A stretch of DNA of 64,000 nucleotides from positions 69,104 through 133,103 of the forward strand of contig CASESG010000001.1 in the NCBI GenBank assembly GCA_949290645.1. Direction: 5' to 3'. This document shows positions 421 through 55,878 of the stretch, in pieces. Numbering within the stretch: position 1 is the first letter of the stretch; each line of letters opens with the position of its first letter. The notes beneath the pieces are model-generated. The model was not told the origin of the DNA, ran no database searches, and worked only from the letters and a program-made list of their open reading frames with translations. The stretch comes from an uncultured Bacillota bacterium (GTDB lineage Bacteria; Bacillota_I; Bacilli_A; RFN20; CAG-288). The position numbers and the translations under genes were made by a program.

Positions 421-2940
421 TCAGGCTCGGTTCTGGAAGTCGAGGATGTTGGGGCTTTCCTTCTGGAACTGCACTCCCGAGAGCGACTGGAAGCGATAGG
501 GATAGAAGCCGGTGACGTTGCTTGCCGCTCTCAGCATCGCGATCTTCATCGCCTCGTACTTGGCCTTGGCGCTGGCGTTGAAGTCTGCGACCGGCTCCTG
601 GCTGAGGTCGAGGGAGTAGACGTAGGGATCGAGGGAGAACTCCTCTCCGAAGAGGGACTTGAGGTTGTCGGAGAGACGGACTTCGCTGGCGTTATATCCG
701 CCGCCCCGATAGAAGACGGGGAGGTTGATTTCCTCATCGTGGATCCACTGGCTTTGCTCTTTCTTCAGCAGGAGGCGGAGAGGGAGGTAGTCGTCTTCCG
801 TGATCTCGACCTTCCAGTCATCGCCCAGTCCTCCGTGGGCTCTGATCAGGTTGGCGATGTTCTCCAGGATCAGGGATTCGAAGGAGAGGTTGTCGACCTT
901 CTTCCAGTCGTAGAAGCGACAGTCTCCCTCAAGTTGAACGAGGACCGGGGCGGAAGTCCTTGCCATGTGGGAAGGAAGGGTGTTTCCGAAGTAGATTCCC
1001 GTGATCAAGGAGAGGAGGCTTGTGATGTTGCTCTCAAGGAAGCTTCCCTGGGGAAGAGTGTCGAGCCCGATCGCGCTGATTCCGGAGTTGTCGAAGGAGC
1101 AGTCTTTGATCGTGGCGTTTCCGAAGAAGACCTTGTTTCCGCCCTTGTCGAAGAAACCTTCGGTATTGGTCAGGCTTTCCCTGATGGGATCGAGGCCTTG
1201 GATGTAGTCTTCCTTCTCGTATCCCGCACCGTCGATGCCGACGAACTCGCTCGCCTGGGTGTTGGAGATGGCTCCGAAGGAGAGCAGGGAGTCGGCCTTG
1301 GAATCCATCTTCATCAATCCCTCGAGGCTTTCGGAAGCGAGGTAGTCCTCGGCGGTCGTCTCATGGCGGACTTTGTCCCGGTCGGTGTAGAGGACTTTCT
1401 TCTTCAGGTCGACCTTGTTGCTCTCGTTGGCACCGCTTAGGAAGAGGAACTCCATCGCGTTCTGAAGGAGGGAGTTGTCGATGGTCAGGTCTTTCGTGGA
1501 GAAGGCACGGACGACGTTTCTTCCCTTCTCCAGGATGCTGTCCTTTATGGTGATTCTCTCTCCCTTGGCCTCAAGGACGGTCCCGACATAGGTGAGGTTG
1601 GTGAGGTTGTTGGCGAAGTTGTCGCAGTTGCTGAAGTGGCAGTCGATGAGATCGATGTCCTCTCCCTCGACGTAGAAGCCGACGTTGTCCTGCCCGTAGA
1701 GGGCGAAGATGGGAAGGCCGGAGGAGGTGACACTCACCCCCTTGGTGTTGGGATCTCCAAGGCTTTGAAGGACCAGGGGTCCTCGATAGAGGTCTTCTGG
1801 TCCCAGAAGGGCGTTTGTGGTCTTGTTTCCGAGGCTGTCGGTGATGGTCTGCTCCTCGGAAGGATAGGCGAGGTCGTGGAGGTTGATCTCGAAGCCGTTT
1901 CCGTAGAAGTCCTTCTGGATGTGGACGGCGGCATAGCGCATAAGGGACACGGGACTATCGGGATTGTTCGTGTTCCACAGATCGAGATAGGAATGGTCAT
2001 AGGTCGTCTCGAACAAATAGAGATCCTCTCTTGCAATCTTGTTCTCTCCTTGGGAGAGTCTTCCGAAGAGCTCGTTCTCTTCCTTGGTGCGGACGAGGTT
2101 TCCGTCCTTGTCCTTCTCATAGGCCTTGTCCAGGGAGAGGAGGTTTCTTCTCAGGACGACGGGGATCCCTTTTTCGCTTTTGTTGGTCGCTTCCATCAGG
2201 TCGTCATAGTCGTAGACGTTGAGGGCCGAGACCACATCCAGGGAGAGCTTTCCGTCTCCCTTGCTGGAGACGGGATTGCGGAAGGTGACGAAGGCCTCTC
2301 CTTCCTCAAGGAGCTTGACCTTGTGGTTCTTGAGGTCGACTTCGACGTTGTCCGTGCTCTCGACCTGGATCTCCTCTTCCCGGAAGCTGTCGGTTCCGAA
2401 GATCTGGAGGTCGAACAGGTAGGAGGAATCCGGTCTTCCTTCCTCGTAAGCTTTCTTGCTGTCGTAGAGTCCGACGTAGTGCTTGCCGGTGATGGAGGTG
2501 GCGGAGAAGGGGAGGACGGGGTTGAGGATGATCGCTCCGGAATCGCCGACGATGCGGGCCAGGAAGGATTTCTGGACGTTTCCCTTCTCGTTGGAGCAGA
2601 TGACTTTGCAGGTCCCTTCCTTTTCGAAGGCGAGGTAGGTTCCATCTTCCTCGACTTCGATGTGGGCGACATCGCTTTCTTCCTCGCCCTTGTCGGAGAC
2701 GCATTTCCAGACGAGCTCGTTTCCTTCGCTCAGGGGATAGTTTGTGTCATAGACGGCTTCGGCCTTGAGCAAGGCTCTCTTCTGGGAGAGGGAGAAGGGG
2801 TTCTCTCCGGTGGTGTAGTCCCACTTGATGTCTTCGATGTCCCCTTCGACCGAGCGGATGACGAAGGTCGAGGTGACGAAGGCGAAGATGGCGATGACAA
2901 AGGGCAAGAAGAGCAACAACAGGATGGCTTTCTTTCTCAT
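421..2940 (-). CDS. Membrane-anchored surface protein with Ig-like and beta-helix regions
   Basis: An 839-residue protein. The N-terminus (MRKK, then about 20 hydrophobic residues) is an uncleaved signal anchor or signal peptide without a lipobox. Residues of roughly 60-260 look like beta-rich, bacterial Ig-like sequence. Residues of about 320-720 show the Asn/Asp/Gly-punctuated short strands of a right-handed parallel beta-helix (for example NLTYVGTVLEAKGERITIKD). The ATG overlaps the stop of the upstream ABC permease as ATGA and follows an AAGGAGGAAAGGA ribosome site, so translation is probably coupled. An extracellular location is inferred. The substrate or partner is unknown. It could be cargo of the adjoining ABC transporter or a structural component of the surface system. 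Confidence 0.75.
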   Translation of the reverse strand: MRKKAILLLLFLPFVIAIFAFVTSTFVIRSVEGDIEDIKWDYTTGENPFSLSQKRALLKAEAVYDTNYPLSEGNELVWKCVSDKGEEESDVAHIEVEEDGTYLAFEKEGTCKVICSNEKGNVQKSFLARIVGDSGAIILNPVLPFSATSITGKHYVGLYDSKKAYEEGRPDSSYLFDLQIFGTDSFREEEIQVESTDNVEVDLKNHKVKLLEEGEAFVTFRNPVSSKGDGKLSLDVVSALNVYDYDDLMEATNKSEKGIPVVLRRNLLSLDKAYEKDKDGNLVRTKEENELFGRLSQGENKIAREDLYLFETTYDHSYLDLWNTNNPDSPVSLMRYAAVHIQKDFYGNGFEINLHDLAYPSEEQTITDSLGNKTTNALLGPEDLYRGPLVLQSLGDPNTKGVSVTSSGLPIFALYGQDNVGFYVEGEDIDLIDCHFSNCDNFANNLTNLTYVGTVLEAKGERITIKDSILEKGRNVVRAFSTKDLTIDNSLLQNAMEFLFLSGANESNKVDLKKKVLYTDRDKVRHETTAEDYLASESLEGLMKMDSKADSLLSFGAISNTQASEFVGIDGAGYEKEDYIQGLDPIRESLTNTEGFFDKGGNKVFFGNATIKDCSFDNSGISAIGLDTLPQGSFLESNITSLLSLITGIYFGNTLPSHMARTSAPVLVQLEGDCRFYDWKKVDNLSFESLILENIANLIRAHGGLGDDWKVEITEDDYLPLRLLLKKEQSQWIHDEEINLPVFYRGGGYNASEVRLSDNLKSLFGEEFSLDPYVYSLDLSQEPVADFNASAKAKYEAMKIAMLRAASNVTGFYPYRFQSLSGVQFQKESPNILDFQNRA

Positions 2941-4547
2941 TCCTTTCTTCCTCCTTCATACTTGAGGAACAGACGGTCGGCTTTCCTGAGAAACAGGAAG
3001 AGAAGGATTCCGGAGAGGAGAAGAAGGAAGAGGATGAGGAATCCGTAGAAGGTCCACTCCGGCTTGTCCTTGAGCCCGGGAAGAAGGGTCAGGACGAAGG
3101 AGAGAAGGACGAAGAAGAGCGGGAGGAGGAAGTCGACGATGAGGCTGTAGAAATCCCCTTTGCTCTTCCTCAAGTCCAGGTGCAGGGTCGAAAGGGAGAG
3201 GGAGAGAAGGAAGAGGAAGCCGACTGCGATCAGGAGGAAGAAGGAGAGAAGGGAGATCTCCTTGGTCGAGAGAAGGACGACAAGGCTCACGAGATAGCTG
3301 AAGAGGGAGAAGGAGAGAGGGACCGCCATCTTGGAGAGAAGCTGTCTTTTTGGGGAGACGGGAAGGGTCTTCATCGTCAGGATGTTGTTCCCTTCCTTCT
3401 TCAGGGAGAGGGAAGAGGTGGCGTTGATGATGGAGAGGAAAAGCAGGATCAACAGGACATCGATCAAAAGCAGGATGTTGGGAAAGAGGGTCCTTATGAA
3501 GGTGAGGTTTCCGCTCTGGAAGATGACATTGATGGAAGAGACCACCAGATAGATCAAGAAAGGCTCGACGGCGACAAGGGAGACGAAGGAAAAGAAGCCA
3601 TCGCTCCTTGAGAGGACGAGGGAAAGCTCCTTTCGAAGGAGGGCTTTCTCCGGACTTCTCAGATGGACGGGAAGGGCAAAGTAGGAACGATTCCTCTCCC
3701 TTCTTTTTCCCTTCTTGTAGTCTCTCTTCAGGGCCAGGGTGAGAAGAGGATAGCCCGTTCCCCAGAAGAAGAGAAGGAAGAGGAAGAAAAAGAGGAAAGA
3801 GACTCCGCTTTCCCTTGTGAAGGTCAAGGAGAGGAAGGAGGTCGGATAGAGGAAGTGGGAGATCCTCTTCATGCTCTCCATCCTTTCGGTCGTGAAGAGC
3901 ATGTCCAGAGAAGAGTTCTGGATCAGATCGACAAACAAGCCCAGAAAGAGGGAATAGAGATAGGCAAGAAGGAAGGAACAACAGATCGTCAGAAGGAAGG
4001 AGAGGAGAGGATAGCTCTTCAGAAAGAGGAAGACCTCATGATAGGGAACAAGGAAGAGAAGGCCGATTCCGGTCAAGAGCAGGGAGAAAAGAGGAAGGAA
4101 GAGGACGACCAGGAAGTAGAAGAGGAAGCTTTCCTTTCCAAGAGCGCCATAGACACAGGACAGGGGAAGATAGGTGACAAGAAGGAACAAGGAGTTCTTG
4201 ACGAAGGCGATGGCCGACTTCGTCAGCACGATGTCTCTTATCGAAACCGGCCGGCTCCCCAGGATGATCCTCTCCTTCTCGTCCGGGAAGAAGGAAGAGT
4301 GCATCGTCGGCAGGGCGAAGACGATTCCCAGAAGAAGGACGATGAAGAGGACGAAGTCATAGAAGGAGCGGTTGAATCCGCTGTAGCTCTGAAGCTGCGT
4401 CGAAATCCGAAGGTCGACAAAGACGATCAAGGAGACGAACAAGGCGGTGAAGAAGAGCGTCGAGAAAAGGGAGAAGAAGAGCTTCCTTCCTCTCTTGGCC
4501 GGGAAAAAGCGGGAGCGAAGCTCACGCTCAAAGAGCGTCCTGACCAT
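2937..4547 (-). CDS. ABC transporter permease, 12 TM
   Basis: A 536-residue integral membrane protein with about twelve strongly hydrophobic segments separated by short basic loops, in the style of ABC-2/ABC exporter permeases without a soluble domain. I chose the ATG at 4545-4547 because AAGGAGGAAGAGA precedes it; the frame is open further upstream, inside the ATPase gene. It overlaps the end of the ATPase gene by 20 bases, and its own stop overlaps the next start. With that ATPase it should form a complete exporter. The operon context suggests export of, or self-protection against, a product of this surface locus. The substrate cannot be told from sequence. Confidence 0.85.
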   Translation of the reverse strand: MVRTLFERELRSRFFPAKRGRKLFFSLFSTLFFTALFVSLIVFVDLRISTQLQSYSGFNRSFYDFVLFIVLLLGIVFALPTMHSSFFPDEKERIILGSRPVSIRDIVLTKSAIAFVKNSLFLLVTYLPLSCVYGALGKESFLFYFLVVLFLPLFSLLLTGIGLLFLVPYHEVFLFLKSYPLLSFLLTICCSFLLAYLYSLFLGLFVDLIQNSSLDMLFTTERMESMKRISHFLYPTSFLSLTFTRESGVSFLFFFLFLLFFWGTGYPLLTLALKRDYKKGKRRERNRSYFALPVHLRSPEKALLRKELSLVLSRSDGFFSFVSLVAVEPFLIYLVVSSINVIFQSGNLTFIRTLFPNILLLIDVLLILLFLSIINATSSLSLKKEGNNILTMKTLPVSPKRQLLSKMAVPLSFSLFSYLVSLVVLLSTKEISLLSFFLLIAVGFLFLLSLSLSTLHLDLRKSKGDFYSLIVDFLLPLFFVLLSFVLTLLPGLKDKPEWTFYGFLILFLLLLSGILLFLFLRKADRLFLKYEGGRKE

Positions 4548-5298
4548 TCTCTTCCTCCTTCTCCTTGGCATTCTCCAGGAAATAACGGTTGAGGTCATAG
4601 CGCTCCCGAGGATTCTCCTTCAGGTCGAAGACCTTCTGGATCAAGCCCTTGTTGATGACCGCCACCCGATCGCAGAGACGGGCGATCAGGTCGATGTTGT
4701 GGCTGGCGACGAAGACCGTCTTGCCGTGGCTGACAAACTCCCGCATCATCTTGCAGAGCTCGTTGGCCGTGAAGGCATCGAGACCGACCGTCGGCTCGTC
4801 CAGGATCCAGATCCTCGGATTGTGGATCAGGGAGGCGATGAGGCAGACCTTCTGCTTCATGCCGTGGGAATATTCCATGATGGGACGCATCAGGTCCGCG
4901 TCCGAGAGATCCAGCCTCTTGGCGAGATAGCGGAGATTGGCTAGGAAACGCTCCTCCTCGACCTGATAGATCGAGGCGATGAACTCCACATAGGAAAGAC
5001 CCGTCATCTCCTCGTAGGCCGTCGGCTCGCTGGTCACGTAGCCAAAGCACCTCTTCGCCTCCAGGCTTTCCTTCTGGATGTCATGACCCAGGATCAAGAT
5101 CCTTCCGGAATCGAAATCCTTGATCCCGATGGAACACTCGATCGTCGTCGACTTCCCGACTCCGTTCTTTCCGATGAAGCCGAAAAGCTCTCCCTCGTAG
5201 ACATCCAGGTCGATGCCCTTGAGGACTTCGTGCTTCCCGTAGCTCTTGTGGAGGGAATGGATCGAGAGGGCGATGTTCTTGGACTGGTTCATGTTCAT
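4528..5298 (-). CDS. ABC transporter ATP-binding protein
   Basis: A 256-residue single nucleotide-binding domain. The Walker A is GKNGVGKST (a variant of GxNGxGKST), the signature is YSHGMKQK, and the Walker B is IWILDEPTVGLD followed by a switch His in VASHNID. This is the CcmA/NatA type of ATPase that pairs with ABC-2 permeases. The frame is open upstream to 5511, but the ATG at 5298 overlaps the upstream gene's TGA as ATGA and has AAAGGAAAGG before it; a second ATG at 5292 is nearly as good. It energises the permease encoded by the next gene. Family assignment is firm; substrate unknown. Confidence 0.92.
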   Translation of the reverse strand: MNMNQSKNIALSIHSLHKSYGKHEVLKGIDLDVYEGELFGFIGKNGVGKSTTIECSIGIKDFDSGRILILGHDIQKESLEAKRCFGYVTSEPTAYEEMTGLSYVEFIASIYQVEEERFLANLRYLAKRLDLSDADLMRPIMEYSHGMKQKVCLIASLIHNPRIWILDEPTVGLDAFTANELCKMMREFVSHGKTVFVASHNIDLIARLCDRVAVINKGLIQKVFDLKENPRERYDLNRYFLENAKEKEEENGQDAL

Positions 5299-8147
5299 GC
5301 CTTTCCTTTGATGGACCATGTGTTGTTGGCATAGGACATCGTATAGGACTGGCCTCTTGCATCTCCGGTCTTGCCGCCGGCATAACGATATAAGTACGTC
5401 GTCGCAGCGTTTCCGCTGACGGAATCGGCAAGGACAAAGCTTCCGCGATAGAAAATGTTGTAGGGACGATCGAAGGTCAATTGAGAGCTCATTTTTTCGC
5501 GCCCAAGCCAATCTTTTTCCAAGACGTATCGGCCATAGTCTTGTCCAGCTACGGAAATATAGTTCCCATGAGAAGTGACCTTCCAGAAGGAACCGGCGAG
5601 ATCATCCGGATTTCTTTTTGTGGTCGCTAAAGTTGTCGCACCATAGAAGTTTGACGTATTATCGTTATCCCAGTTGGCAGACCAAGAATAATCGGGGATG
5701 AAGGCATAAGTGTTGTCTCCGTCTGTGATCAATCCGGTCTTCGAATCATAGATTCCGGTCGGGAGCCCATCGATAAAACTTGTACCGGAAGAAGAACCTG
5801 GCAGGACATCGTCTCGTACGACATGATCTGTCGTCGTGTAATCGACCAGAACCTCATTTTTTCTTGTCATCAAGGGTGGAGTATAAAAACCACGGACGTA
5901 AAAGTAGTTGATGCTCCCTGGAGCATTTTTGCTTTGGGAAGAATTTGGGCCTAGCATGAAATAATTGCCAAAAAGACGGACTTTCTTGTGGGATGCGGTT
6001 TGATTCCAGTGATCGATTTCCGTTTGGAAAGATTCCATTGAAGAAATGTCCATTTGACCTCCGAAGACAAAAGGATGATTTTGCTGGATTCCTTCGTTTT
6101 CTTGCAAGAGGATCTGGCCATCGAAATTGCAATAGGCAGGAGTATCGCTCAATACCTTCCATAGACTTGCGTTACTTTCCAATAAGTCACCGTTTTTTGC
6201 GTCTGGCAAAGGATAATAGCTCTTCGAAGTCGGAGAATAATAGAAAGTGTCTAGAAATGTCAGACCGCCAACGGATTGATAGGACTGGGGGTCGAAGTAA
6301 CTGTTGCTTGCTGTTTGGAGAACAGAGGAATAGGAAAGAAGCAGAGTGCTGTGACAATCAATCTCAAGATGGCTTCCCGCCATGAAAACGAGCTCCGTGC
6401 TGAGATGAACTTTTGAATTCTTTATTTCAATTTGGTAATAGAAAGGAATGAAGAACTGGGCTCTTCTCGAGTCAAACCCCATGGAAACGCTCGATACTTG
6501 GAAGTTGATCAACCAATTGGAAAATATCAGATCCGCATTTTCGACTGAATAATTGATTTGTTGGTTGAATAGGTTCGAAGCAAATGATTTGAACTGGTCA
6601 TTGTACGTGACGTTTCGAATGATTTTGCCGGAATTCAGCAACAGCAATTCGTTTCCACTGCTATTGCTTGACGATCCGATGAGTTGAACGATTCCTTGAA
6701 CGCCCATCTTTTCGTCGGACCATCCGGCCAAATCCACCTTGTACTCAGCTTGGAAGCGACTTCCGGAATAAAACACAGTTTCACAATCGAGATAGGGACA
6801 ACGATAGAAGTTGAAAGGAGCATTGGCGTTGTAGAAGGACATCGGCGCAGAAAGGGGAAGGAAGATGTCTTCCAACACGAAGGGAGTCTGCAAGGTGGAA
6901 CCAGGTAACATGACCAAGGATCCTTTGTCTGTCTCATTGGAGAAGGTATTTTTGTCATCGATGTTGAAACGGGAGCTATCCGTTATCGATCCATAACTGG
7001 TCAGCGAATGTTCGGAAGGAAGGATGAGATCATAACCGTTGAGGTCGATTTCGCAATAGCTTCCGTTGATATATCCCTGGAATCCAGATTGCGAAAAATC
7101 GATATTCTTTCCAAAGTAGCCAGTGATTCCCCCGATTGTGATATTTCCGGAGAAAATGACGTCCGATTCGAGGACGATTCGATTGGCACAATAATTTGCG
7201 GAATAGGAGTTCGTAGTCGGGTTATATGTGTAAGTTCCACTGGATGTCAGATCTTTGTAGGGGGTCTGCAGTTTGGAATCGCCTCCTTCTTTAGCGTTCG
7301 CTTCGGGATTAGATAACCCAATTGTGTCATCAGCGTTGTAAGAAACGAATTTCTTTTGTGAGGTGGAATCGTTAGAACCATATCCGTTTTGCGATCCAGA
7401 GCTGGAAGAAAGACGGATATTGACGGCTTGCCCGATTGCAAAGCCAGAGTTTTGTGATTGCTCTACATGCGTGACGGACTGGTATTTACCATTCTTGAAA
7501 GAGCGTAAACTGATGCCAAAAAAAGGTCCACCGTCTTTTTCTGCACTGACGGCTTGAAGCTCGAGGCTGACGTCGTGATTGTAAGCTTTCTCGGTCAAAA
7601 AAATGATGTTGTCCGGTTGGCCGACGAACTCCGAACCTGGATTGAGGCTCTCCTGATAGGTAGCCTGCAGGGTATTGACGGTCGCCGTTTCATAAGACCG
7701 ATTTTTGAATCCTTCATTGTTGCTGTAACTGAGGCGGATGTTGTTTGTCGTCATGTAAGAAGTTGCCAGCCCTTCCAGAATCATGTTTCCAGTGACAGGA
7801 ATGTGATTGCTTAAGGATTGACCGACACTTTCTCCTTCCGTGACGGACCAGGTGAGATATTGATCCCCCGCCACATACATGGCGTTTTTGTCGCCGCTTG
7901 TGGCATCGGCAAGGTCGGCCATACTCAGGATATAGCCGTCCGGAAAATAGCGGGTGGATGTCTCGTTTGTCTGACGGTTCTGAAAGGTGACTTTGTGCAG
8001 TTCTTTCTGGTCTTCCTTGTTCTCGTCGACATTGCTGATGGAGGCGCTAGGATTTTCTGGTTGAATCTGGTATCCCGAATACCCCGTGCTGATGGTCATG
8101 ATGGAAAGTGCGAGGAAGAGGCCGGATTTCAATAATTTCTGTTTCAT
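5295..8147 (-). CDS. Large secreted surface protein
   Basis: A 950-residue protein with an N-terminal signal sequence (KLLKSGLFLALSIMTIS, then STGYSGY) and no other membrane segment. The body is rich in Ser, Asn, Tyr and Thr with repeated short beta-strand patterns. Near the N-terminus is a stretch (KVTFQNRQTNETSTRYFPDG) reminiscent of InlB-type beta-grasp repeats. No enzyme motif was seen. Its signal region resembles that of the upstream 264-residue protein, so both may be matured by the SipW-type peptidase of the operon; this is inference. The stop is coupled to the ABC ATPase start. Base composition here is lower in GC than in the flanking genes, suggesting a fast-evolving or exchanged surface antigen. 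Confidence 0.75.
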   Translation of the reverse strand: MKQKLLKSGLFLALSIMTISTGYSGYQIQPENPSASISNVDENKEDQKELHKVTFQNRQTNETSTRYFPDGYILSMADLADATSGDKNAMYVAGDQYLTWSVTEGESVGQSLSNHIPVTGNMILEGLATSYMTTNNIRLSYSNNEGFKNRSYETATVNTLQATYQESLNPGSEFVGQPDNIIFLTEKAYNHDVSLELQAVSAEKDGGPFFGISLRSFKNGKYQSVTHVEQSQNSGFAIGQAVNIRLSSSSGSQNGYGSNDSTSQKKFVSYNADDTIGLSNPEANAKEGGDSKLQTPYKDLTSSGTYTYNPTTNSYSANYCANRIVLESDVIFSGNITIGGITGYFGKNIDFSQSGFQGYINGSYCEIDLNGYDLILPSEHSLTSYGSITDSSRFNIDDKNTFSNETDKGSLVMLPGSTLQTPFVLEDIFLPLSAPMSFYNANAPFNFYRCPYLDCETVFYSGSRFQAEYKVDLAGWSDEKMGVQGIVQLIGSSSNSSGNELLLLNSGKIIRNVTYNDQFKSFASNLFNQQINYSVENADLIFSNWLINFQVSSVSMGFDSRRAQFFIPFYYQIEIKNSKVHLSTELVFMAGSHLEIDCHSTLLLSYSSVLQTASNSYFDPQSYQSVGGLTFLDTFYYSPTSKSYYPLPDAKNGDLLESNASLWKVLSDTPAYCNFDGQILLQENEGIQQNHPFVFGGQMDISSMESFQTEIDHWNQTASHKKVRLFGNYFMLGPNSSQSKNAPGSINYFYVRGFYTPPLMTRKNEVLVDYTTTDHVVRDDVLPGSSSGTSFIDGLPTGIYDSKTGLITDGDNTYAFIPDYSWSANWDNDNTSNFYGATTLATTKRNPDDLAGSFWKVTSHGNYISVAGQDYGRYVLEKDWLGREKMSSQLTFDRPYNIFYRGSFVLADSVSGNAATTYLYRYAGGKTGDARGQSYTMSYANNTWSIKGKA

Positions 8148-8162: not shown

Positions 8163-8957
8163 TTATGCGGTTTCCTTCGAAACGTTGACGGAGAGAGTGA
8201 CTCCGGAAAAGTCGTCTTCCGTGAGGCCGGTCTCCTTGGAAAGATCCAAGTCCAGAATCAACGTGTATTGGTCATTGTAGGAAATGTGATCGATGAGAAT
8301 GTCCGCCAAGGAATAGAGGTAGGGGTTGCCGTCGATTGTTCCGAGGGCGTGGTCTGTCAACAGGACGGAAAGGGTGAGCGTCTTTTCTGCCGCATCGCTT
8401 CGAAGGTAGGAAACCTCATTTCCCGCATCGGAAAGGGCGTTGTTGTTGATGAACCAATTGCAGAGAGGGAAAAGACGATCGTTGTTGATGTCCTCCAGTG
8501 TCCGATATCGGAAATAGGCCAGGCCATTCTCGGCCAGGGAAGCGACGTTGACGTTGGATGCGCTCGGAAAGGTGAAAATGAAGTCGACGGTCGCCGTGTG
8601 TCCTGGATTTTCGCCAAGCTGTTTGATGACGGCAGCAAGGGCAGGCTGTGAATTCTGGCTCTGGAAGGTGATGACGAAGTCATCGAGATGGGCCTCTCCG
8701 TCCTGTCTGTCGGTGATGGTGTTTCCGGGATGGAGGAGCGCATCTCCTTCAGAATAGTAGTGGATTCCTTCGCAAGCGAGGTTTTGGAACAGATAGGAAG
8801 AGAGATAATTCGTTTGATTTAGCACTTGAACGGCACCGGGCTTCGCTGGCGGAAGCTTGTTCACGTTATCCTTTTCAATAGAATAAGCGGCATAGGAAAT
8901 GGACACGGTCAGGAGAATTCCGGTGGCAAGAACAAGGGACAATGTCCGTCTTCTCAT
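8163..8957 (-). CDS. Secreted protein with SipW-like signal
   Basis: A 264-residue protein starting MRRRT followed by a hydrophobic core (LVLATGILLTVSIS) and an Ala-Ala-Tyr-Ser end, resembling SipW-dependent signal peptides. The mature part is predicted beta-rich with no recognised catalytic motif, and ends in a beta-strand pattern (GVTLSVNVSKE) like the end of the TasA-like protein earlier in the operon. It starts two bases after the lipoprotein gene ends and finishes 15 bases before the 950-residue protein. A fibre or minor-subunit role is plausible but inferred. Family not recognised with certainty. Confidence 0.7.
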   Translation of the reverse strand: MRRRTLSLVLATGILLTVSISYAAYSIEKDNVNKLPPAKPGAVQVLNQTNYLSSYLFQNLACEGIHYYSEGDALLHPGNTITDRQDGEAHLDDFVITFQSQNSQPALAAVIKQLGENPGHTATVDFIFTFPSASNVNVASLAENGLAYFRYRTLEDINNDRLFPLCNWFINNNALSDAGNEVSYLRSDAAEKTLTLSVLLTDHALGTIDGNPYLYSLADILIDHISYNDQYTLILDLDLSKETGLTEDDFSGVTLSVNVSKETA

Positions 8958-8959: not shown

Positions 8960-10090
8960 TCAGATTTCCTCAAAACAGGCGAAGAGATGGAGATATTGTT
9001 TCGTCACGGGGGTCAAGTCGGTGAAGCGTCCCGCCCTTGGATCGTCCGGCCCCAAGGCCGAGGTATACCAGCCGAGGAAGGTCGCCCCCTCCTTGGAGGC
9101 GGTCGGGATTTGGCTGTATTCCAGGCTCTCTCCTTTCAGGCATGTGACTTTAGAGAGATAGCTTCCGTCCAAGAGTCCTCCGTTGGTCGTGGCATCGAAC
9201 TCGACGGTGCAGGGGATGGAATCGTTTTTGAGGTTTGCGATGAGATCCCAGGTGAAGCCATTGTAAAGGTAGATGGCAAAATTGGTTAAATCGTAATAGA
9301 AGTCTCCTTGCTTTGCTTGGATGGAGATGTCAAATCCTGGCGCACCATTTCCACTGAACCATTTCGTGGATTCGGGCATCGGGAATTCCAGATGTTCCAG
9401 GTTCTCGCCATCGGGATCGTCCGTGTACTGGATGAAGACGTGGTAGGTGCCATTTGCGCTCTGGGTCGTGATGCTGGCGATACCTCGTCCGTCCTTCCCG
9501 TCCTTCCCCTGGACATAGGGAATCTGGATGACGGTGTCTTCCTTGCTTTCGTCGGTGTAGGAGATGGTGATCGTGGTGTTTCCTTCCTCGTCGGTCTCGC
9601 TTGTGATGTCCTTGATTCCGATTCCGTCCTTGCCGTTCTTCAGGACGAAGGATTTCTCTGTCCCGTCGGTCAGGGAGATGGTGACGGTATTGGTGTCCTT
9701 CTCGACGTCATAGCTGGTGGTGATGTCCTTGATCGAGACGAGGTCGGGAAGCTCGATCAGGGCAGGAGCGAGATCCTTGTCGGTGAAGGTGACCTGGAGA
9801 TAGTTCTTGTTGTCCTTGGTGATCTTCTCGATCTTCTCGATGCCGTTTCCGATCGGGCCTTGCGGTCCTTCCTTGCCGTCCTCGGGAGCGGGGATCTTGA
9901 AGGTCACGGGAGCGTAGGAATCGTCGGTGAAGGTGATGGTGATCGTCGTGTCTCCGTTGTCCTCGGTCGTGGTGGCGATGTTCTCGATGACCATTCCTTG
10001 GTCGCTGAAGAAGGAGGAGCAGGAGCTGAGGGCGAAGAAGGAAAAGAGCGAGAGCAGGAAGAGCTGGATCTTTCTCAGTGTTTTCTTCAT
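8960..10090 (-). CDS. Repeat-rich lipoprotein with Gly-X-Y linkers
   Basis: A 376-residue lipoprotein. The signal ends in the lipobox LSSC near residue 24, so membrane attachment by a lipid is expected. About five beta-hairpin repeats follow, each of the form I-x-x-I-T-x-x-x-D-x-x-x-x-T-T-I-T-I-x-(Y/F)-T-D. They are joined by glycine-rich linkers such as GKEGPQGPIGNG, GKDGIGI and GKDGKDGRGI, which resemble collagen-like or phage tail-fibre linkers. The C-terminus has a second module (GNGAPG) and an InlB-type beta-grasp repeat ending in FLGWYTS. It starts three bases after the zinc-ribbon gene. A structural, cell-surface role is inferred. Confidence 0.8.
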   Translation of the reverse strand: MKKTLRKIQLFLLSLFSFFALSSCSSFFSDQGMVIENIATTTEDNGDTTITITFTDDSYAPVTFKIPAPEDGKEGPQGPIGNGIEKIEKITKDNKNYLQVTFTDKDLAPALIELPDLVSIKDITTSYDVEKDTNTVTISLTDGTEKSFVLKNGKDGIGIKDITSETDEEGNTTITISYTDESKEDTVIQIPYVQGKDGKDGRGIASITTQSANGTYHVFIQYTDDPDGENLEHLEFPMPESTKWFSGNGAPGFDISIQAKQGDFYYDLTNFAIYLYNGFTWDLIANLKNDSIPCTVEFDATTNGGLLDGSYLSKVTCLKGESLEYSQIPTASKEGATFLGWYTSALGPDDPRAGRFTDLTPVTKQYLHLFACFEEI

Positions 10091-10093: not shown

Positions 10094-11176
10094 CTAACCT
10101 CCGATGTGGATGAAGGGGACGTTCTTGACGAAGAAGCGTCCTTTCTCGTCATAGTGGACTTCGGCGTGGCAGAAGGGGCAGTCCTCTCCCTTGAGCGGAT
10201 TGGAGCAGATGGGGCAGATGTCCTTCCTTTTCGAGTCGATGAGGAAGGTGAGGGAAAAGAGGAGAATGCGGAAGTCTTCCTTCTCCAGGAGAGGAAGTCT
10301 TCTCTCTTCCTTCCCGTGTCGGAGAAGGAGCTCCGGAAGGAAGAGGGAGGAGGGAAGGGAGAACTGGTATTCGCTCTCCTCCTCTCCGTCTTTGATCGTG
10401 AGGACCCTCTCCTTCTCCTGGAGCTGGTAGGTCCTTCCTTCTCTTTGCATGATCAAGGTTCCTTCTTCTTCCCGTCCGTCCTCTCCGAGGCTTTCCCTGA
10501 GGGAGGAAGAGAGAGCCTCCCTCATCTCCTTCTGGGCCTTTTCCTCCTTCCGATAGAAGGAGAGAAGAAGGCGGAAGTCCTTCTGCTTGGTGAGGAGATT
10601 GGTCTCTTCGACAGAGGGGAAGGGAAGAAGGGAGACGTTCCTTGCGAAGTCGCTCTCCAGAAGGAAGAGAGCTTTCTTCTGAAGCTTTCGAAGAAGAAGG
10701 GTCCTTCTTTCCTTCTCCTCCTCTTTCTTTCCTTTCTCCTTCACGTATTGCCGAAGGAGGGAGATCGTCCCGTATCTTCCGTAGCTGATCCTTCCCTGGA
10801 GGAAAGGGAGCGTTTCCTCTCCGGAATCGAGATGGCTGGTCGCACTCTCCAGTTCCCTGCTCACCTGGTGGAGAAGGAAGAGGGCGAAGCGGTTCTCGTA
10901 GGTGTCCATCGATTCCGTCGGGACCTTGTCGTACATGCGCTGGATGCGGATCCTTCCCAAGGGGTCCCTGGCAAAAAGGCGAGGGTCTTGGAAGGCCTTC
11001 CGCGCCAGGGAGGAATCGAAGTGGCGGACCTGTTCGATCCGGGAGAGCTCCTCCCTTGTCTCCATCTTCCCCTTTCCGAGGCGGAAGATGTTCTCGATGG
11101 CATCGAGGACCTCTCTCCTCTCCTTGAGCCTTTCCTCAAAGAGGGCGGAGAGGTCTTTTTCCTCCATCTCTCTCAT
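10094..11176 (-). CDS. McrC/DUF2357-like partner protein with zinc ribbon
   Basis: A 360-residue soluble, charged protein. Residues of about 75-105 carry KVPTESMDTYENRFALFLL, which matches the (S)xDTxENRF signature of DUF2357 proteins, the usual partners of McrB-like GTPases/ATPases. A long Lys/Glu-rich, probably coiled region follows. The C-terminus has a zinc ribbon, CPIC-x9-CPFC. I cannot find a PD-(D/E)XK nuclease motif, although McrC and many DUF2357 proteins have one. The ATG overlaps the ATPase stop as ATGA, which supports a stoichiometric complex. The family call rests on this motif plus the neighbour. An alternative start is Met4. Confidence 0.65.
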   Translation of the reverse strand: MREMEEKDLSALFEERLKERREVLDAIENIFRLGKGKMETREELSRIEQVRHFDSSLARKAFQDPRLFARDPLGRIRIQRMYDKVPTESMDTYENRFALFLLHQVSRELESATSHLDSGEETLPFLQGRISYGRYGTISLLRQYVKEKGKKEEEKERRTLLLRKLQKKALFLLESDFARNVSLLPFPSVEETNLLTKQKDFRLLLSFYRKEEKAQKEMREALSSSLRESLGEDGREEEGTLIMQREGRTYQLQEKERVLTIKDGEEESEYQFSLPSSLFLPELLLRHGKEERRLPLLEKEDFRILLFSLTFLIDSKRKDICPICSNPLKGEDCPFCHAEVHYDEKGRFFVKNVPFIHIGG

Positions 11177-13047
11177 AGTCCGATGCGTTCGACCATCCGA
11201 AGGACAGCCTTTCTCGTCTGCGGATAGCTGTCCTTTCCATAGAGAGAGTCGATCTTCGAAAGGAGATGGCTGAGGGACAGGGAGAGAGAGGAATCCATCC
11301 TTCCCTGGAGCTTGCGGAAGACCTTGGTGAGGAAGATCTCGTCCAGGAGGTCCTCCCTCTTCTCTCCCATCTCCGCAAAGACGGGCATCATCTTCTGGAT
11401 CTGGTTCACGATACGGTTTCCCAGGGCGATGGAGAACTCCTCTTCCATGAAGGAGAGAAGCTCCAGGAACTTCTTCCTCTCCTCCTCGGAGAAGAGATTC
11501 TCTTCCTTCCCTTCCGCCTTCTGGAAGAGACTTTTCAATCCTCGGTAGGTGAGGAGGATCGGATGGACCTCTTCCGGGACCTCAAACGGCCTCTGATAGG
11601 ATTCGAAGTCGATCACGATGGCACGGTCGATGACCTTGTCCGTGACCGTGTAGGTCGAGTCGTCCTTGTTGCAGGTTCCGATGAAGTAGGTGTTGGGAAG
11701 AAGGTCGACCTCTCCCTCGTGGAGATGAAGGGGAGCGTCATAGTCTTCCGGAAGGGAGAGCAAGAGAAGATGCCGGTCTTCCTCCGGGAACTCCATCACC
11801 GAGAGGAAGTCGGCGAAGTAATACTCGACCCTCGAGATGTTCATCTCGTCCAGGACCATCAGGTTGAGCCTTTCCGGCTCATAGCTGCTCTGATAGAGAC
11901 GGCGCAGGAAGTTCGTCTCCATGTAGCGTCTTGTGAACTCGTTGTAGTAGCCCAGAAGATCCGACTTCTCCTTGTAGGTCACCTGGATCGGTTCGAAGAA
12001 GCTCTCCTCCCCGATGAACTTCGCAAAGTAACGCGGGAGGGAGGACTTTCCGGTTCCGGAGATACCTTCCAGGATGATGAGATGCGTGGCGTTCATCGCC
12101 GCGACGAAGAGGGCGAGCTCCTTCCTCGGATAGAAGAGACCTTCCTTCTTGGCCAGGTAGGACCTCAGGTCGTCGATCAGGGAAGGAAGATCGACGTTCT
12201 CGCTGTCCAGGGCGACAAAGCTCTGGGCGGCGTTTCTCTCGTCGATCGCACATAAAGTCGGGAAAAGCTGCTCCTTCGGAGGGAGAGCCTCTTTCTCCTC
12301 ATCCCTGGGAGAAAGACGGATCTCCGCCGGCAAGGAAGAGATCTTTCCTTCTCCTTCCGGGGCATTTTGAGAGGAAACCGGAGCGGGACCCTCCTTCTTC
12401 TCCTCTTTCTTCTCCCCTTCGAAGGAAGAGACGACATCATCCTTCTCGTCCTTGTCCGCTCCTTCCTGCTCCTCGAGGAATTCCTTCCTCTCCTTCTCTT
12501 CCTTCTTGACCTGCTCCTCGTTGTAGCTTGTCAGGTTGACCTTCGCGAAGCCGACGCAATAGACCGCAATGCCGATGATGGCATAGACCAGAAGGGAGAG
12601 GATGACGAAGAACAAGGCCGCCAGGACAAGGGCCTGGCTGACGAAGAGCATCGTCGTCCCGTAGCTCTCCATTCCGACGATCAGATGGAAGAGAGAACCG
12701 ACACCCAGAGAGAGGAACAGGGCAATCGCCAAGGCGATGCCATAGGCGTAGAAGGCTTCCTTGCAATAGGTCTTCCGCCCGTGCCTTCTCTGATAGGCGG
12801 CGATGTAGCAGCAGCTGATCACGAAGAGCACCAGGTAGAAGACGATGAACAGAAGCATCACCCACATCATCGCCGTCGCCGCGATGCTCGGGAAACCGAA
12901 GGCCTTGCCCAAGGCCGAGATCGGATTGTTGCGGGCGAAGATCGTGTAGTTGGCGTCAAGGCCAAAGCCCGTCACCAGGGCAAGGACCGCATAGAAGACG
13001 GCGAGACAGATGCTGAGCTTGTTCGCGCGAGTCAGTTTGTTTTCCAT
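11173..13047 (-). CDS. Membrane-anchored McrB-like AAA+ ATPase
   Basis: A 624-residue protein. Four membrane helices lie at about residues 11-30, 59-84, 100-124 and 132-164. An acidic, probably disordered linker covers 175-265. The AAA+ domain covers about 300-560: Walker A GISGTGKSS (328-336), Walker B LMVLDEMNISR (396-406), a sensor-1-like GTCNKDDST (457-465) and an arginine-finger-like DRA (474-476). The DEMN-xxR-x-E-Y-Y-F pattern is typical of the McrB/MoxR-like branch. Ordinary McrB proteins have N-terminal DNA-binding domains, not membrane helices. The gene overlaps the signal peptidase end by 16 bases and is coupled to its McrC-like partner. A motor at the membrane for surface assembly is inferred. 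Confidence 0.85.
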   Translation of the reverse strand: MENKLTRANKLSICLAVFYAVLALVTGFGLDANYTIFARNNPISALGKAFGFPSIAATAMMWVMLLFIVFYLVLFVISCCYIAAYQRRHGRKTYCKEAFYAYGIALAIALFLSLGVGSLFHLIVGMESYGTTMLFVSQALVLAALFFVILSLLVYAIIGIAVYCVGFAKVNLTSYNEEQVKKEEKERKEFLEEQEGADKDEKDDVVSSFEGEKKEEKKEGPAPVSSQNAPEGEGKISSLPAEIRLSPRDEEKEALPPKEQLFPTLCAIDERNAAQSFVALDSENVDLPSLIDDLRSYLAKKEGLFYPRKELALFVAAMNATHLIILEGISGTGKSSLPRYFAKFIGEESFFEPIQVTYKEKSDLLGYYNEFTRRYMETNFLRRLYQSSYEPERLNLMVLDEMNISRVEYYFADFLSVMEFPEEDRHLLLLSLPEDYDAPLHLHEGEVDLLPNTYFIGTCNKDDSTYTVTDKVIDRAIVIDFESYQRPFEVPEEVHPILLTYRGLKSLFQKAEGKEENLFSEEERKKFLELLSFMEEEFSIALGNRIVNQIQKMMPVFAEMGEKREDLLDEIFLTKVFRKLQGRMDSSLSLSLSHLLSKIDSLYGKDSYPQTRKAVLRMVERIGL

Positions 13048-13961
13048 TGCTTGTAGTCGCTTTCCGGAAGGATCGTCTCTTGTTGGTCAGTCTGTAGAAG
13101 GGTGTCTCCGTCCTTTGTCTTTTCGTCATCGTACAAAAAGGATGTCTTGCGGAAGAACAGTGTTCCGCTTTCGCTGATCAGAGTGAAATTGTCTAATTGC
13201 AAGACCTTTGAGTCGAGAAATTGGATACGGATCTCGGCAGCCCTCTGGTTTCTCACGGACAGAATCTCGTAGAGAACAAGGAGGTAGAAGACGGAAACGA
13301 AGGCCAGGATCCCGTAGTTCGACTGGGCGAAGAAGACCAGGATTCCGATCTTCGGGATGCGGAAGCCCGTGTAGACTCCGACCACGTCCTTTAAGGTGAT
13401 CTTCATCGAGTCGGTGCTCTCGTTGGCATCTCCCCTTGTCCGGAGATAGCCTTCTTCCTTCTCGACCACCCGGTGGACGATCTCCAGTCCGTCATCGTTG
13501 ACATAGCTGATGATGTCATAGACCTGGATCTCGTCCAGGGAGTTCACCTTTCTCAGGCCGATCCAGTCGTTGACCTGGAGCTGGTCGTCGAGATCGTTTG
13601 CGAAGAGATATTCGTTCTTCGGATTCTTCTCCGACATCGAACCGGTGGCGATGACCGCCGTCTGGAACGGAAGGTCGAAGGAATTGATGGTCTTGTCGGC
13701 CAAGGAGAGGAGGAAGAGAGCGGAGAGAAATGCCAGAACAGCATCCAGGACGAAACCGAAGATTCTTCGGATCGATCCGGATGCTGTCTTTTTCGCTGTC
13801 CGTTCCTTTTCTCTCTCCCGCAATTCCTTTGCGTAGAGCAGGGAATCGTTCTTTCCCGCCAATGTCCTCTTCTTCTCTTCCCGAAAGACCGAGAGAAAGT
13901 AGATCGTCAGTCCCGAAAGGAGGAGGAGAACGATGGCCAGGGAGATCCAGAAAAGGAGCAT
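13032..13961 (-). CDS. sipW: SipW-type (S26B) signal peptidase I
   Basis: A 309-residue membrane protein with an N-terminal TM, a cytoplasmic basic stretch, a second TM near residue 75, the catalytic Ser in ATGSMSEKNP, and a C-terminal TM. The general-base position is a His (IVHRVVEKEEG) rather than Lys, which is the archaeal/ER-type S26B pattern of SipW. The GDANESTDS box is also conserved. In Bacillus, SipW processes TasA and TapA (known). Here it lies between a TasA-like gene and the AAA+ gene, so its substrates are probably the secreted proteins of this operon. The gene symbol reflects the family, not a proven orthologue. Confidence 0.85.
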   Translation of the reverse strand: MLLFWISLAIVLLLLSGLTIYFLSVFREEKKRTLAGKNDSLLYAKELREREKERTAKKTASGSIRRIFGFVLDAVLAFLSALFLLSLADKTINSFDLPFQTAVIATGSMSEKNPKNEYLFANDLDDQLQVNDWIGLRKVNSLDEIQVYDIISYVNDDGLEIVHRVVEKEEGYLRTRGDANESTDSMKITLKDVVGVYTGFRIPKIGILVFFAQSNYGILAFVSVFYLLVLYEILSVRNQRAAEIRIQFLDSKVLQLDNFTLISESGTLFFRKTSFLYDDEKTKDGDTLLQTDQQETILPESDYKQWKTN

Positions 13962-13986: not shown

Positions 13987-14628
13987 TTACTCGCCGACAG
14001 TGACGGTGATGGTGAAGGTCGTCGCCTCCAAGGCCGTCTTGAAGTCGTTGAGGACGCCGTTTACCGTCGTGGTGTTGTTATCGTCAGACTTTCCAAGAGG
14101 AAGTTCCTTTCCCGCACCGTTGTTGAAGTATTCGCAGGGATCGGATCCTCCGAAAGCATCCCCCCAACCCCAGGTGAGGGTGACTGCCGTCGCGGCGTTG
14201 TCGGTGATCGTGGCCGTGGTGTTGCCCGGAGCGGTGATGTAGTTCTTGGTGACGGCGTTGTTATCGCCACTTGTCTCGATGTTGATGTTGATCGTCTTTT
14301 CGTTGAGGTTGTAATCGGGATCATCGGGAGTCAGGGTGAGGACAAGGTCGAGGTTGGCAGCAGGATTTCCATCATACTGGAGACGTCCCGTGTCGACTGC
14401 GGCAGCCGGGTAGAAGAGAAGCGAGGTATCTTCCAAAGTCACATTCAGGGAATAGTTCTTGTTTTCGATGTCGATCTGGCCAGGGGTGACCGCGTTGTCA
14501 TCGAAGTTGACCTTGCTGTCTGAGAGCACATAGCCTGCGAAGGCCGCGGTTCCGATGCCTGCGAGACCGAAGAGCAAGCCGAGTGTCGCATAGAGCTTCT
14601 TGTGCGAATTCTTCTTTTTTTGACTCAT
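13987..14628 (-). CDS. TasA-like protein with SipW-dependent signal
   Basis: A 213-residue secreted protein. The N-terminus is long and Lys-rich (MSQKKKNSHKK), followed by LYATLGLLFGLAGIGTAAFAGY and then LSDSKVNFDDNAVTPGQIDI, the typical layout of SipW-dependent signal peptides. The mature part of about 170 residues is Thr/Asn/Asp-rich and beta-predicted, ending TFTITVTVGE. It is the promoter-proximal gene, with a strong AAAAGGAGG site, so it is probably the most abundant product and could be a fibre-forming major subunit. It resembles TasA/CalY in signal and context only; sequence identity cannot be judged here. Confidence 0.75.
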   Translation of the reverse strand: MSQKKKNSHKKLYATLGLLFGLAGIGTAAFAGYVLSDSKVNFDDNAVTPGQIDIENKNYSLNVTLEDTSLLFYPAAAVDTGRLQYDGNPAANLDLVLTLTPDDPDYNLNEKTININIETSGDNNAVTKNYITAPGNTTATITDNAATAVTLTWGWGDAFGGSDPCEYFNNGAGKELPLGKSDDNNTTTVNGVLNDFKTALEATTFTITVTVGE

Positions 14629-14657: not shown

Positions 14658-14685
14658 ATTGTAGGGCGGGGGGGGATTGATGGCA
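14658..14685 (-). promoter_or_regulatory. Promoter of the surface operon, with poly-C/G spacer
   Basis: On the minus strand a -35 TTGCCA (680-685) and a -10 TACAAT (658-663) are separated by 16 bases. The spacer contains a run of seven C (G7 on the plus strand, 668-674) followed by G and CCC. Sixteen is shorter than the optimal 17. The transcript would start about 25 bases before the ribosome site of the TasA-like gene. Slippage in the homopolymer would change the spacing. Confidence 0.6.
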
Positions 14686-14824
14686 ACTGGAGGGGAGACT
14701 TCGGTGCTCCTTTTTGCTTTGGATGCCTTAACCGATCAATTTTTTCGATCCAAAAGGCAAGGATCAAGAAAAAAGCGGGATGTTTTTGATTCATCTCGCC
14801 TGTCATTACGCTTTTATATCTTTG

Positions 14825-53731: not shown

Positions 53732-54014
53732 TTAATTTTCATTGTCTATGACCTCCCAATAGCCATATTGGTTGTTTCCGATTCTTATAAGATAACCATT
53801 TTTCAACCAATTGATCCGTTATTCTTTGAACCGTTCTTATCGTTTTGTTTATTTTAGTAGAAATTTCACTTCTTGTAATTTTAGGATTACTTTTTATTAA
53901 ACTAAAAACTATTTGCACAGCTTTATTAAGAGAAGATATTGCTGAGACATTTGCAGTGATATTTGCTTTCAAATATGGAAAATTATAATTCATCCATCGA
54001 CAAGAAATCTTCAA
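53732..54014 (-). pseudogene. Winged-HTH remnant of an ATP-binding regulator, frameshifted
   Basis: The frame SLIKSNPKITRSEISTKINKTIRTVQRITDQLVE is a C-terminal winged HTH like those ending AlbA_2/HATPase_c_4 regulators. After VEK the frame goes off, but moving one base gives NGYLIRIGNNQYGYWEV, the exact continuation expected for this HTH, ending at a TAA at 53732-53734. The shift lies in a run of five A. The N-terminal domains are absent, replaced by the end of the adjoining AAA ATPase gene. Confidence 0.7.
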
Positions 54015-55164
54015 GTCTAATATGACGTACTGTAGATGTTGAATAGTCTATTGCATCATTTGTTATCAATATTTTTTGATTGCTATTATCCAAATGAGAA
54101 AATGCACTAAATTCCTTTTTATAAGCTTTTTCATCAACAACACTATAAGCAACTTGCACTAGATATGTTTTCCCGTTTTTTGTCGCTATAAAATCTATTT
54201 CTTTTCCCTTGTTATCAAACACTTTTAAATCGTATCCCATATATAATAGTTCATTATATACAATATTTTCTAAATTATGGTCGAAATCATATCTATTATT
54301 ATCAACTTTTAAGGAATTAAAGGATACATCTGAATTATATAATTTATGATTAAAACTTAATTCTCTTTTAACTTTTGTAGAGTATTGCGGCAATTCATCG
54401 ATAACATAGGCCTCTTTAAGGTAATGCATATAACCTAATATTGTATTTGACGAACACTCAATGCCTTGGCCGGCTAGGTATTTGTGAATCGATCTTGCCG
54501 ACAATATTCTAGAATTATTTCTCAAAACAAAATTAACGAACTTGTTAAATATATCAGGCTTTCTGATTTTATATCTTTTTATTAAATCTTTGATAACAAT
54601 TGTGTCTTCCAAATCTTTTAAATATCTAATTGTTGATTCTTCGTTTTCCATATCAAATCTTTTTGGAAAGCCTCCCCATATTAAATAATCTGTAACATTA
54701 AAATTTCTTCCTATTTGATTTGAATAGTCAACAATTTCTTTATAAACGAAAGGTCTAATCCTAAAGGAAACATATCTCCCAGACAATTCGGTAGCAAACT
54801 CTTTGGATAGCAACTTTGAATTAGAGCCAGATATAAATACAGAGTTATTATGAAGTCTAAGAGTTCTTACCGCAATTGCCCAATCTTTTACATTTTGTAC
54901 TTCATCTAAAAATATATAGCTTTTTCCATCTTTTTTGTTTTGTTCTACATAATTTAACAACAAATCAGCCGAATCAGCTTTTTTTAAATCAGCAGCGTCT
55001 TCAAAATCTAGATATATTGTATTTGAAGAGAAATGGTTTATTTCATCATATATAGTTTTTAGAATAACCGATTTTCCACATCTTCTTATGCCGGTTATTA
55101 TTTTGACTAAGTCACTGTCGTAAAAAGGTCGTATTTGTTTTAAATATTTTTCACGTATTATCAT
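53983..55164 (-). CDS. AAA_14/DUF4143 ATPase
   Basis: A 393-residue protein. Walker A is GIRRCGKSVIL near residue 30, Walker B YIFLDEVQNV, sensor-like FISGSNSKLL, then a winged-helix region and a C-terminal PD-(D/E)XK-like DUF4143 domain (KGKEIDFIATKNGKTYLVQVAYS, an E-x-D/Q-x-K-like arrangement). Such ATPases are common, often mobile, and of unknown role. The ATG at 55164 has AAGAGGTGT before it. Codon use is strongly AT-biased, unlike the core genome. The promoter contains TGCGCA repeats. Confidence 0.88.
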   Translation of the reverse strand: MIIREKYLKQIRPFYDSDLVKIITGIRRCGKSVILKTIYDEINHFSSNTIYLDFEDAADLKKADSADLLLNYVEQNKKDGKSYIFLDEVQNVKDWAIAVRTLRLHNNSVFISGSNSKLLSKEFATELSGRYVSFRIRPFVYKEIVDYSNQIGRNFNVTDYLIWGGFPKRFDMENEESTIRYLKDLEDTIVIKDLIKRYKIRKPDIFNKFVNFVLRNNSRILSARSIHKYLAGQGIECSSNTILGYMHYLKEAYVIDELPQYSTKVKRELSFNHKLYNSDVSFNSLKVDNNRYDFDHNLENIVYNELLYMGYDLKVFDNKGKEIDFIATKNGKTYLVQVAYSVVDEKAYKKEFSAFSHLDNSNQKILITNDAIDYSTSTVRHIRLEDFLSMDEL

Positions 55165-55188
55165 AAATACACCTCTTATTTCGATAGT

Positions 55189-55275
55189 ATTATACTGCGC
55201 AGTTTTTAATAAGTAAACAATTTTGCGCAGTTTGCTGCTATTATTGCCCAATCGTTATAATAAGTATACTGCGCA
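55189..55275 (-). promoter_or_regulatory. Promoter with three TGCGCA operator-like repeats
   Basis: On the minus strand TTTACT (55212-55217), a 17-base spacer and TATAAT (55189-55194) precede the AAA_14 gene. The palindrome ACTGCGCAGT (55194-55203) fills the spacer. Two further TGCGCA copies lie at 55224-55229 and 55270-55275. Binding of a regulator would block RNA polymerase. Confidence 0.6.
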
Positions 55276-55487
55276 ATAATTTTGGCTTTACAAAAAGTGA
55301 TCAGCTTAAAGTGATTAATGGTTAAAATTCTTCCATAGTCAGCTGAATCTCTAGGAACGATTATTGTTACTTTATTAAAATCGCCAATAAAGTCTTTAAC
55401 CTTTACTTCTGGCGAGATTTTTTTATAAGTGACTACTCCGTCCTTTGGAGATTTCTTAGAAACGCAGATTTTAAGTTTGTGTTTCAT
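55206..55487 (-). CDS. Small unknown protein of mobile-element type
   Basis: A 93-residue protein starting MKHKLKICVSKKSPKDGVVTY, basic, with a beta-rich middle (KVTIIVPRDSADYG). The start has a very good site, AAGGAGATTTTTT. Short proteins of this look occur in Firmicute plasmids and conjugative elements, but I cannot name a family. The C-terminal third reads through the operator region of the AAA_14 gene and may be altered. The AT bias is that of the island. Confidence 0.5.
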   Translation of the reverse strand: MKHKLKICVSKKSPKDGVVTYKKISPEVKVKDFIGDFNKVTIIVPRDSADYGRILTINHFKLITFCKAKIIAQYTYYNDWAIIAANCAKLFTY

Positions 55488-55808
55488 AAAAAATCTCCTT
55501 TCTGAGAAGAGCACACATATCTCCTTCTCGCCATAATGGAGAAAACTAAGGTGTTTTGATGGGGTGATTTTGAAAAAAACAAAAGTCTTTTGACCATAAA
55601 AATGCCCATCCCGATTAGAGAACATAATCTTCAACAAGAATGGACTCAAATATGATGAAGTTAATATTCGTTTTATGAGGGGGTGTGCAAAGGACTTCTC
55701 AAAGGCATGACGTGTGTAAAAATACCTACGCCGTGTAGATTTTGCTCTAAAACATGATTATTTTTCTTCTTTTGTTATCAAGTTGCTACAAGGCTAAGGT
55801 AGTTGCAG
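55488..55808. other. AT-rich gap left of the insertion sequence
   Basis: About 320 bases without a supported gene between the small island gene and the insertion sequence. Nothing structured seen. Confidence 0.45.
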
Positions 55809-55832
55809 AGAAGTATGTGTATGGCAGTAACC

Positions 55833-55878
55833 CCAAGCTTCTTCTTTGAGCATATGCTCACTCAAAGAAGAAGCTTGG
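55833..55878 (+). repeat. 18-bp perfect inverted repeat inside the IS left end
   Basis: CCAAGCTTCTTCTTTGAG (55833-55850) and its exact complement (55861-55878) are separated by 10 bases. It lies between the IS end and the transposase start, a place where some elements carry structures that block incoming transcription or translation. Confidence 0.85.

Follow-up and report, generated by a model that had tools for sequence, protein, structure and literature searches.

A four-helix, membrane-anchored McrB-family NTPase in a putative surface-fibre operon of uncultured gut bacteria

Results and Discussion

The McrB-type AAA+ NTPase with four transmembrane (4-TM) helices described here, found across a sizeable group of uncultured gut bacteria, probably serves not to cut DNA but to help in building or controlling a fibre on the cell surface. 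This role is suggested by the combination of lost DNA-cutting and DNA-reading parts, four membrane anchors, and a fixed cluster of genes for surface proteins. The protein is encoded in a 64,000-nucleotide stretch of contig CASESG010000001.1 from an uncultured Bacillota bacterium (hereafter the window).

Membrane Region and Linker of the 4-TM McrB Protein

The gene (11173–13047, minus strand, ATG start) encodes a protein of 624 amino acids (aa), which was characterized by profile searches, AlphaFold2 (AF2) modeling, and a family alignment. Its hydropathy profile has four hydrophobic segments between residues 11 and 158 (12574–13017, minus strand), namely residues 11–29, 59–77, 106–124, and 140–158. 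Four such segments within the first 165 residues were obtained in none of 2,000 whole-protein shuffles. The AF2 model, built with 38 homologs, has confident helices (pLDDT mostly >85) at residues 7–30, 59–88, 96–124, and 126–168, and the four helices are kept across the 4-TM loci. Positive charges are present in the N-terminus and loop 2, with almost none in loop 3. These loop charges fit a predicted N-in/C-in topology, in which the AAA+ domain would be cytosolic.

Residues 169–257 (12277–12543, minus strand) form a mostly disordered linker according to AF2 and charge counts, with a helix at residues 177–208 and disorder at residues 209–251; the model becomes confident again in the AAA+ domain from about residue 285. 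Acidic residues prevail in the linker of the window protein, and the family average is 14.6 D/E versus 4.9 K/R residues. The TM helices and the linker occupy the place of the DNA-recognition domain, and no Pfam domain of that kind was found in the window protein. The preliminary description, made from the sequence of the window, had proposed both the four N-terminal helices and a long acidic linker in this place, and both were borne out by these analyses. A local fusion was rejected as the origin of the TM region because this region is present in the full-length homologs of the clade.

The AAA+ Domain and Its Phylogeny

The AAA+ core (11608–12150, minus strand), delimited by homology and alignment, contains a Walker A motif (GISGTGKS, residues 328–335), a Walker B motif (VLDEMN, residues 398–403, with DEMN at 400–403), and the NxD motif (NKDD, residues 460–463). 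The catalytic positions of all three are invariant or nearly so in the alignment of the 38 homologs. The domain is matched by McrB chains in the PDB (E = 1.9e-5) and, weakly, by the NCBIfam McrB model, while hhalign against Escherichia coli McrB gave 96% over residues 303–491. The signature N-x-D-[D/E] is present in nearly all of the approximately 100 relatives aligned, with NTAD at this site in E. coli McrB. The motif region aligned to E. coli McrB without gaps, and hence no change in length reveals the published ‘deletion’. In the CoCoNuT paper (PMC11090510), the NxD[D/E] signature defines a branch of McrB. Taken together, these comparisons support an intact AAA+ domain that belongs to the McrB family and its NxD branch. 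The earlier assignment as McrB-like with a DEMN-type Walker B was therefore upheld, and the domain falls inside this family rather than in an unrelated clade. A fold search of the AF2 model returned rings with the PS1 insert (MCM, NorQ, RavA, dynein, and Lon), a result that fits the assignment and does not discriminate.

For phylogenetic analysis, a careful tree was inferred from 83 AAA+ domains; E. coli McrB was left out because of the very long branches in a quick tree. All 4-TM proteins (46 rows) form one clade (support 97/92), and the grouping is the same in both trees. The sister clade (support 98/99) consists of proteins with one TM helix, mostly encoded beside signal peptidases and large DUF2357 proteins. 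Based on the NxD motif, the membrane anchor, and the signal peptidase, we infer that these 1-TM proteins are the published CoCoPALMs, an identity that remains indirect given that no DivIC/FtsB Pfam match was found in this group.

The DUF2357 Partner

The next gene of the operon (10094–11176, minus strand) shares 4 nt with the AAA+ gene. It encodes a 360-aa protein with a DUF2357 domain of the McrC N-terminal type (PF09823, 41 bits) and a C-terminal CPxC/CxxC zinc ribbon. Among 26 homologs, the only invariant positions are Y93, E94, N95, T192, and those of the CPxC/CxxC motifs (four Cys). No PD-(D/E)xK nuclease motif is conserved in these homologs, and no nuclease Pfam match was obtained for the protein. 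Because hhalign of this family against E. coli McrC returned nothing, the McrC-type membership rests on Pfam. With neither a recognition nor a nuclease domain recognized, the reading as a restriction enzyme was rejected, in agreement with the earlier view of the protein. That view had also included a role as a membrane motor or sensor, which would be narrowed by the genomic context to the biogenesis of surface proteins or filaments. The operon context and the DUF2357 partner were missing from the preliminary description.

The Operon in the Window

The two genes belong to one tight minus-strand series that runs from 14628 down to 421 and is apparently a single operon, with ordinary chromosomal genes directly beyond its ends. 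A promoter-like site (TTGCCA-17-TACAAT; 14658–14686, minus strand) lies 30 bp before the first gene; it is a consensus match only, in a region with seven such sites versus five expected. The first gene (13987–14628) encodes a small secreted protein with an N-terminal signal helix, a putative fibre subunit according to its model and the comparison of loci. The model is a beta-sandwich (pLDDT 82) with no PDB match at E ≤ 0.001 in the fold search, such that its identity as TasA or a pilin is not established. Searches of Pfam and NCBIfam found no family match for this protein, and a PDB profile search gave chance-like matches. TasA identity is thus unsupported by family, profile, and fold searches, and the argument from the signal and the neighboring gene remains. 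That neighbor (13032–13961) encodes a 309-aa signal peptidase of the SipW/Sec11 type (NF046067, 62 bits, below the cut-off; also matched by the SEC11 profile) and overlaps the start of the AAA+ gene by 16 nt. Its residues S108, H163, D178, and D184 are invariant in 20 homologs, corresponding to a Ser, His, and Asp rather than a Ser/Lys arrangement.

The placement of a cytosolic AAA+ ring beside a signal peptidase and a bundle of TM helices would also suit quality-control extraction, with signal peptides or mis-inserted precursors of the subunit being drawn out of the membrane by the ring as by other AAA+ extractors. However, there is no protease domain or recognized protease partner for degradation, and the present data fit assembly work equally. 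We regard this explanation as very improbable.

Downstream of the DUF2357 gene, the minus-strand series continues with genes for a lipoprotein or surface protein that is kept in the operon (376 aa; 8960–10090), a second secreted protein of the putative fibre-subunit family (264 aa; 8163–8957; HMM score 129.7 bits), and a large secreted protein (950 aa; 5295–8147). These are followed by an ABC transporter ATPase (4528–5298, with 5298 as the computed probable start; PF00005, 85.6 bits), its permease with about 12 TM helices (2937–4598), and another large secreted protein that is conserved after the permease (839 aa; 421–2940; 330.8 bits to the L041 homolog). The lipoprotein, the 950-aa protein, and the permease were assigned by comparison of loci.

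The operon occurs a second time in full in the window genome (L034:504–13311; C4:48000–67000), there with two beta-sandwich genes. The gene order of this copy differs in that the ABC pair directly follows the DUF2357 gene. In addition, a locus on C3 of this genome (L207:7350–12534) encodes a SipW-type peptidase and several related small secreted proteins with GxGxA(T/S)W-type signals. No McrB gene was found within the 16 kb read there, indicating that secretion of this kind can, in some cases, do without a neighboring McrB pair. Elsewhere in the window, positions 53983–61088 contain AT-rich stretches (GC 0.32–0.34 versus about 0.55) and look like acquired DNA. The open reading frames in this segment were judged by eye, and we take them to encode two DUF4143-like AAA proteins, a MATE-like transporter, and a Mutator-type transposase-like protein.

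Conservation of Gene Order Among Relatives

At the family level, the 624-aa protein is matched in 18 of 23 genomes, in several of them through the AAA+ part only. Across 84,980 species genomes, at least 575 encoded relatives were found, and the best 80 of these were taken. The counts below that derive from these best 80 of at least 575 relatives describe the 4-TM clade, not all McrB relatives. The 4-TM form with the same neighbors is present at 43 of the loci sampled; among the best 80 of at least 575 relatives, 34 GTDB loci carry it. The hosts are mostly uncultured Bacilli, Acholeplasmatales, and Clostridia; Mollicutes are also named.

Gene order across the 4-TM loci is nearly invariant. Among the 34 GTDB loci, the signal peptidase is upstream of the AAA+ gene in 32 of 33, the DUF2357 gene is downstream in 31 of 32, beta-sandwich genes are present in 30 of 31, and intergenic gaps are mostly <30 nt. 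The ABC ATPase, the permease, and the lipoprotein were found at every one of these loci with enough flanking sequence (26/26, again from the best 80 of at least 575). The number of beta-sandwich genes varies from one to seven per locus, in tandem families, with one or two as the common case. One exception to the order is L070, where a large secreted gene lies between the signal peptidase and AAA+ genes.

Other arrangements were observed among the relatives. Proteins of about 840–920 aa with about 10–12 TM helices before the McrB domain are encoded at L047:7729–10488, L049:7125–9857, L050:8835–11591, and L085:106–2874, and the DUF2357 protein that follows at each has three CxxC motifs; at L047, L049, and L050, no signal peptidase is adjacent. 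Moreover, at L045 (9033–13609), L110, and L125, a single DUF2357 gene is flanked by, or lies next to, two McrB-type genes, which suggests a hetero-oligomeric ring at these loci.

A Sister Branch Linked to Type IV Pili

In a 4-TM sister subclade, a gene for PilB lies directly upstream of the McrB gene in eight genomes. Seven of these loci (L088, L090, L091, L209, L210, L211, and, on a short contig, L212) have further pilus genes, namely those for PilC and PilM and, as far as the contig extends, usually also those for PilD and pilins. On the eighth, a short contig (L093/L202), PilB stands alone. At L088, Pfam confirmed N_methyl pilins, Peptidase_A24, T2SSF, and T2SSE; the protein that we take to be PilM was named by its position and its likeness to PilM, without a family match. 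At L088 (1527–12477), L090, L091, and L209–L211, all from uncultured Clostridia, the 4-TM McrB and DUF2357 genes come directly after the type IV pilus operon. The pair would therefore be common to two unrelated surface-filament systems. The window gave no reason to expect this linkage, which, of the independent evidence, points most strongly to filament biogenesis. Four other 4-TM relatives (L086, L095, L099, and L213) have no recognized filament genes nearby. The window itself has no pilus genes, and its genome (about 85% complete) differs from those of the Clostridia in having no PilB-type ATPase above the cut-off, such that no competing pilus motor is evident.

These contexts also bear on whether the protein builds no fibre and instead acts as a MoxR-like chaperone, maturing or gating the ABC transporter or the signal peptidase encoded beside it. 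The presence of the MoxR-type rings NorQ and RavA among the PS1-insert matches is in line with this explanation, as is the ABC transporter at all 26 of the adequately flanked 4-TM loci noted above. However, sequence comparison puts the AAA+ domain with McrB, its DUF2357 partner is of the McrC type, and no VWA partner was seen. Furthermore, the pilus-linked sisters (e.g., L209–L211) lack such an ABC pair in the stretches read. We regard a chaperone of this kind as quite unlikely.

Comparison With Known Systems

Similar to E. coli McrBC, the window system has an AAA+ core with a DExN Walker B and a McrC-type gene directly downstream. It differs in lacking a DNA-recognition domain and a recognizable nuclease, in having NxD rather than NxxD, and in being anchored to the membrane. 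With the CoCoNuTs, as described in PMC11090510, it shares the NxD McrB branch and a McrC homolog that often lacks an active nuclease. However, Pfam recognized no HEPN or other nuclease gene alongside it among the operon proteins of the window, and the long coiled coil of CoCoNuTs is replaced by membrane helices and a mostly disordered linker of about 90 residues.

These relationships raise the alternative that the system protects against phages: derived from type IV restriction and related to CoCoNuT and CoCoPALM, it would be tethered to the membrane, sense infection at the envelope, and trigger cell death or membrane damage. The AAA+ domain matches a candidate-defense model of PADLOC (PDC-M26A, 137 bits), and the NxD branch consists mostly of predicted defense systems according to PMC11090510. 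Nevertheless, Pfam recognized neither a nuclease or HEPN domain nor any other effector domain in the operon proteins, several secretion and surface genes are fixed in the operon, its flanks are ordinary chromosomal genes, and the sister branch sits in pilus operons. A defense function seems unlikely.

The closest known system is CoCoPALM, which is named in one paragraph of the CoCoNuT paper (PMC11090510). That paragraph describes an FtsB-like TM helix and coiled coil on McrB, a McrC homolog with a coiled coil, a signal peptidase, and a suggested role in pilus assembly. A literature search for DUF2357 with SipW or for further work on CoCoPALM found nothing relevant beyond this paper and its preprint. 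Compared with that description, the window system likewise has an NxD-branch McrB tied to the membrane, a DUF2357 partner, and a signal peptidase as neighbor. It differs, however, in that an acidic linker and four TM helices stand where CoCoPALM has a single FtsB-like TM helix and a coiled coil, and in its short DUF2357 protein with a zinc ribbon, its fixed ABC exporter, and its beta-sandwich genes. The 4-TM McrB of the window has no DivIC/FtsB Pfam match. We therefore place the system as a sister of CoCoPALM rather than a strict member; it has a 4-TM architecture that the consulted CoCoPALM text does not describe, a branch linked to type IV pili, and a fixed ABC exporter.

In the TasA-SipW operon of Bacillus subtilis, as in the window, a small secreted protein with a signal peptide is encoded beside a SipW-type peptidase. 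The subunit of the window operon was not matched to TasA by fold, and the McrB/DUF2357 pair and the ABC transporter are additional.

Proposed Function

On balance, we lean toward the view that the membrane-anchored McrB-family NTPase serves an operon for protein secretion or a surface fibre. This view is based on guilt by association. The points in its favor are the near-invariant synteny, the tandem beta-sandwich genes, the kept residues of the peptidase and the motor, the pilus-linked sister branch, the support for the 4-TM clade, a partner without nuclease residues, and the lack of an evident competing pilus motor in the window genome (about 85% complete). Fibre subunits are often encoded as tandem families. 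On the other side stand the SipW-type locus L207 with no McrB gene in the 16 kb read, the 4-TM relatives with no recognized filament genes nearby, and the unmatched fold of the putative subunit. Moreover, the one or two beta-sandwich genes per locus are compatible with secreted proteins that do not form fibres.

McrC stimulates McrB and docks onto it as a stalk. By analogy, six 4-TM McrB subunits may assemble into a ring beneath the membrane, to which up to 24 TM helices would anchor it, and the DUF2357/zinc-ribbon protein would dock like the McrC stalk and may stimulate hydrolysis. The ring would be driven by hydrolysis of an NTP, either GTP or ATP, and its motion would pass through the acidic linker and the TM bundle. 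In this way, it could drive, proofread, or gate the export or polymerization of the beta-sandwich subunits processed by the signal peptidase. The ABC exporter and the lipoprotein would be further parts of the putative fibre system.

More tentatively, rings of the McrB type with a DUF2357 activator may represent a general class of membrane motors for extracellular filaments, serving type IV pili as well as beta-sandwich fibres processed by SipW. To our knowledge, no dedicated motor is known for SipW/TasA-type matrix fibres. If the proposed function is correct, the 4-TM McrB would be a candidate NTPase for such fibres, and the motor of a restriction enzyme would have been reused at the membrane as a secretion motor. 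The one-paragraph proposal for CoCoPALM would then gain a concrete anatomy, with an operon, partners, catalytic residues, and two filament contexts.
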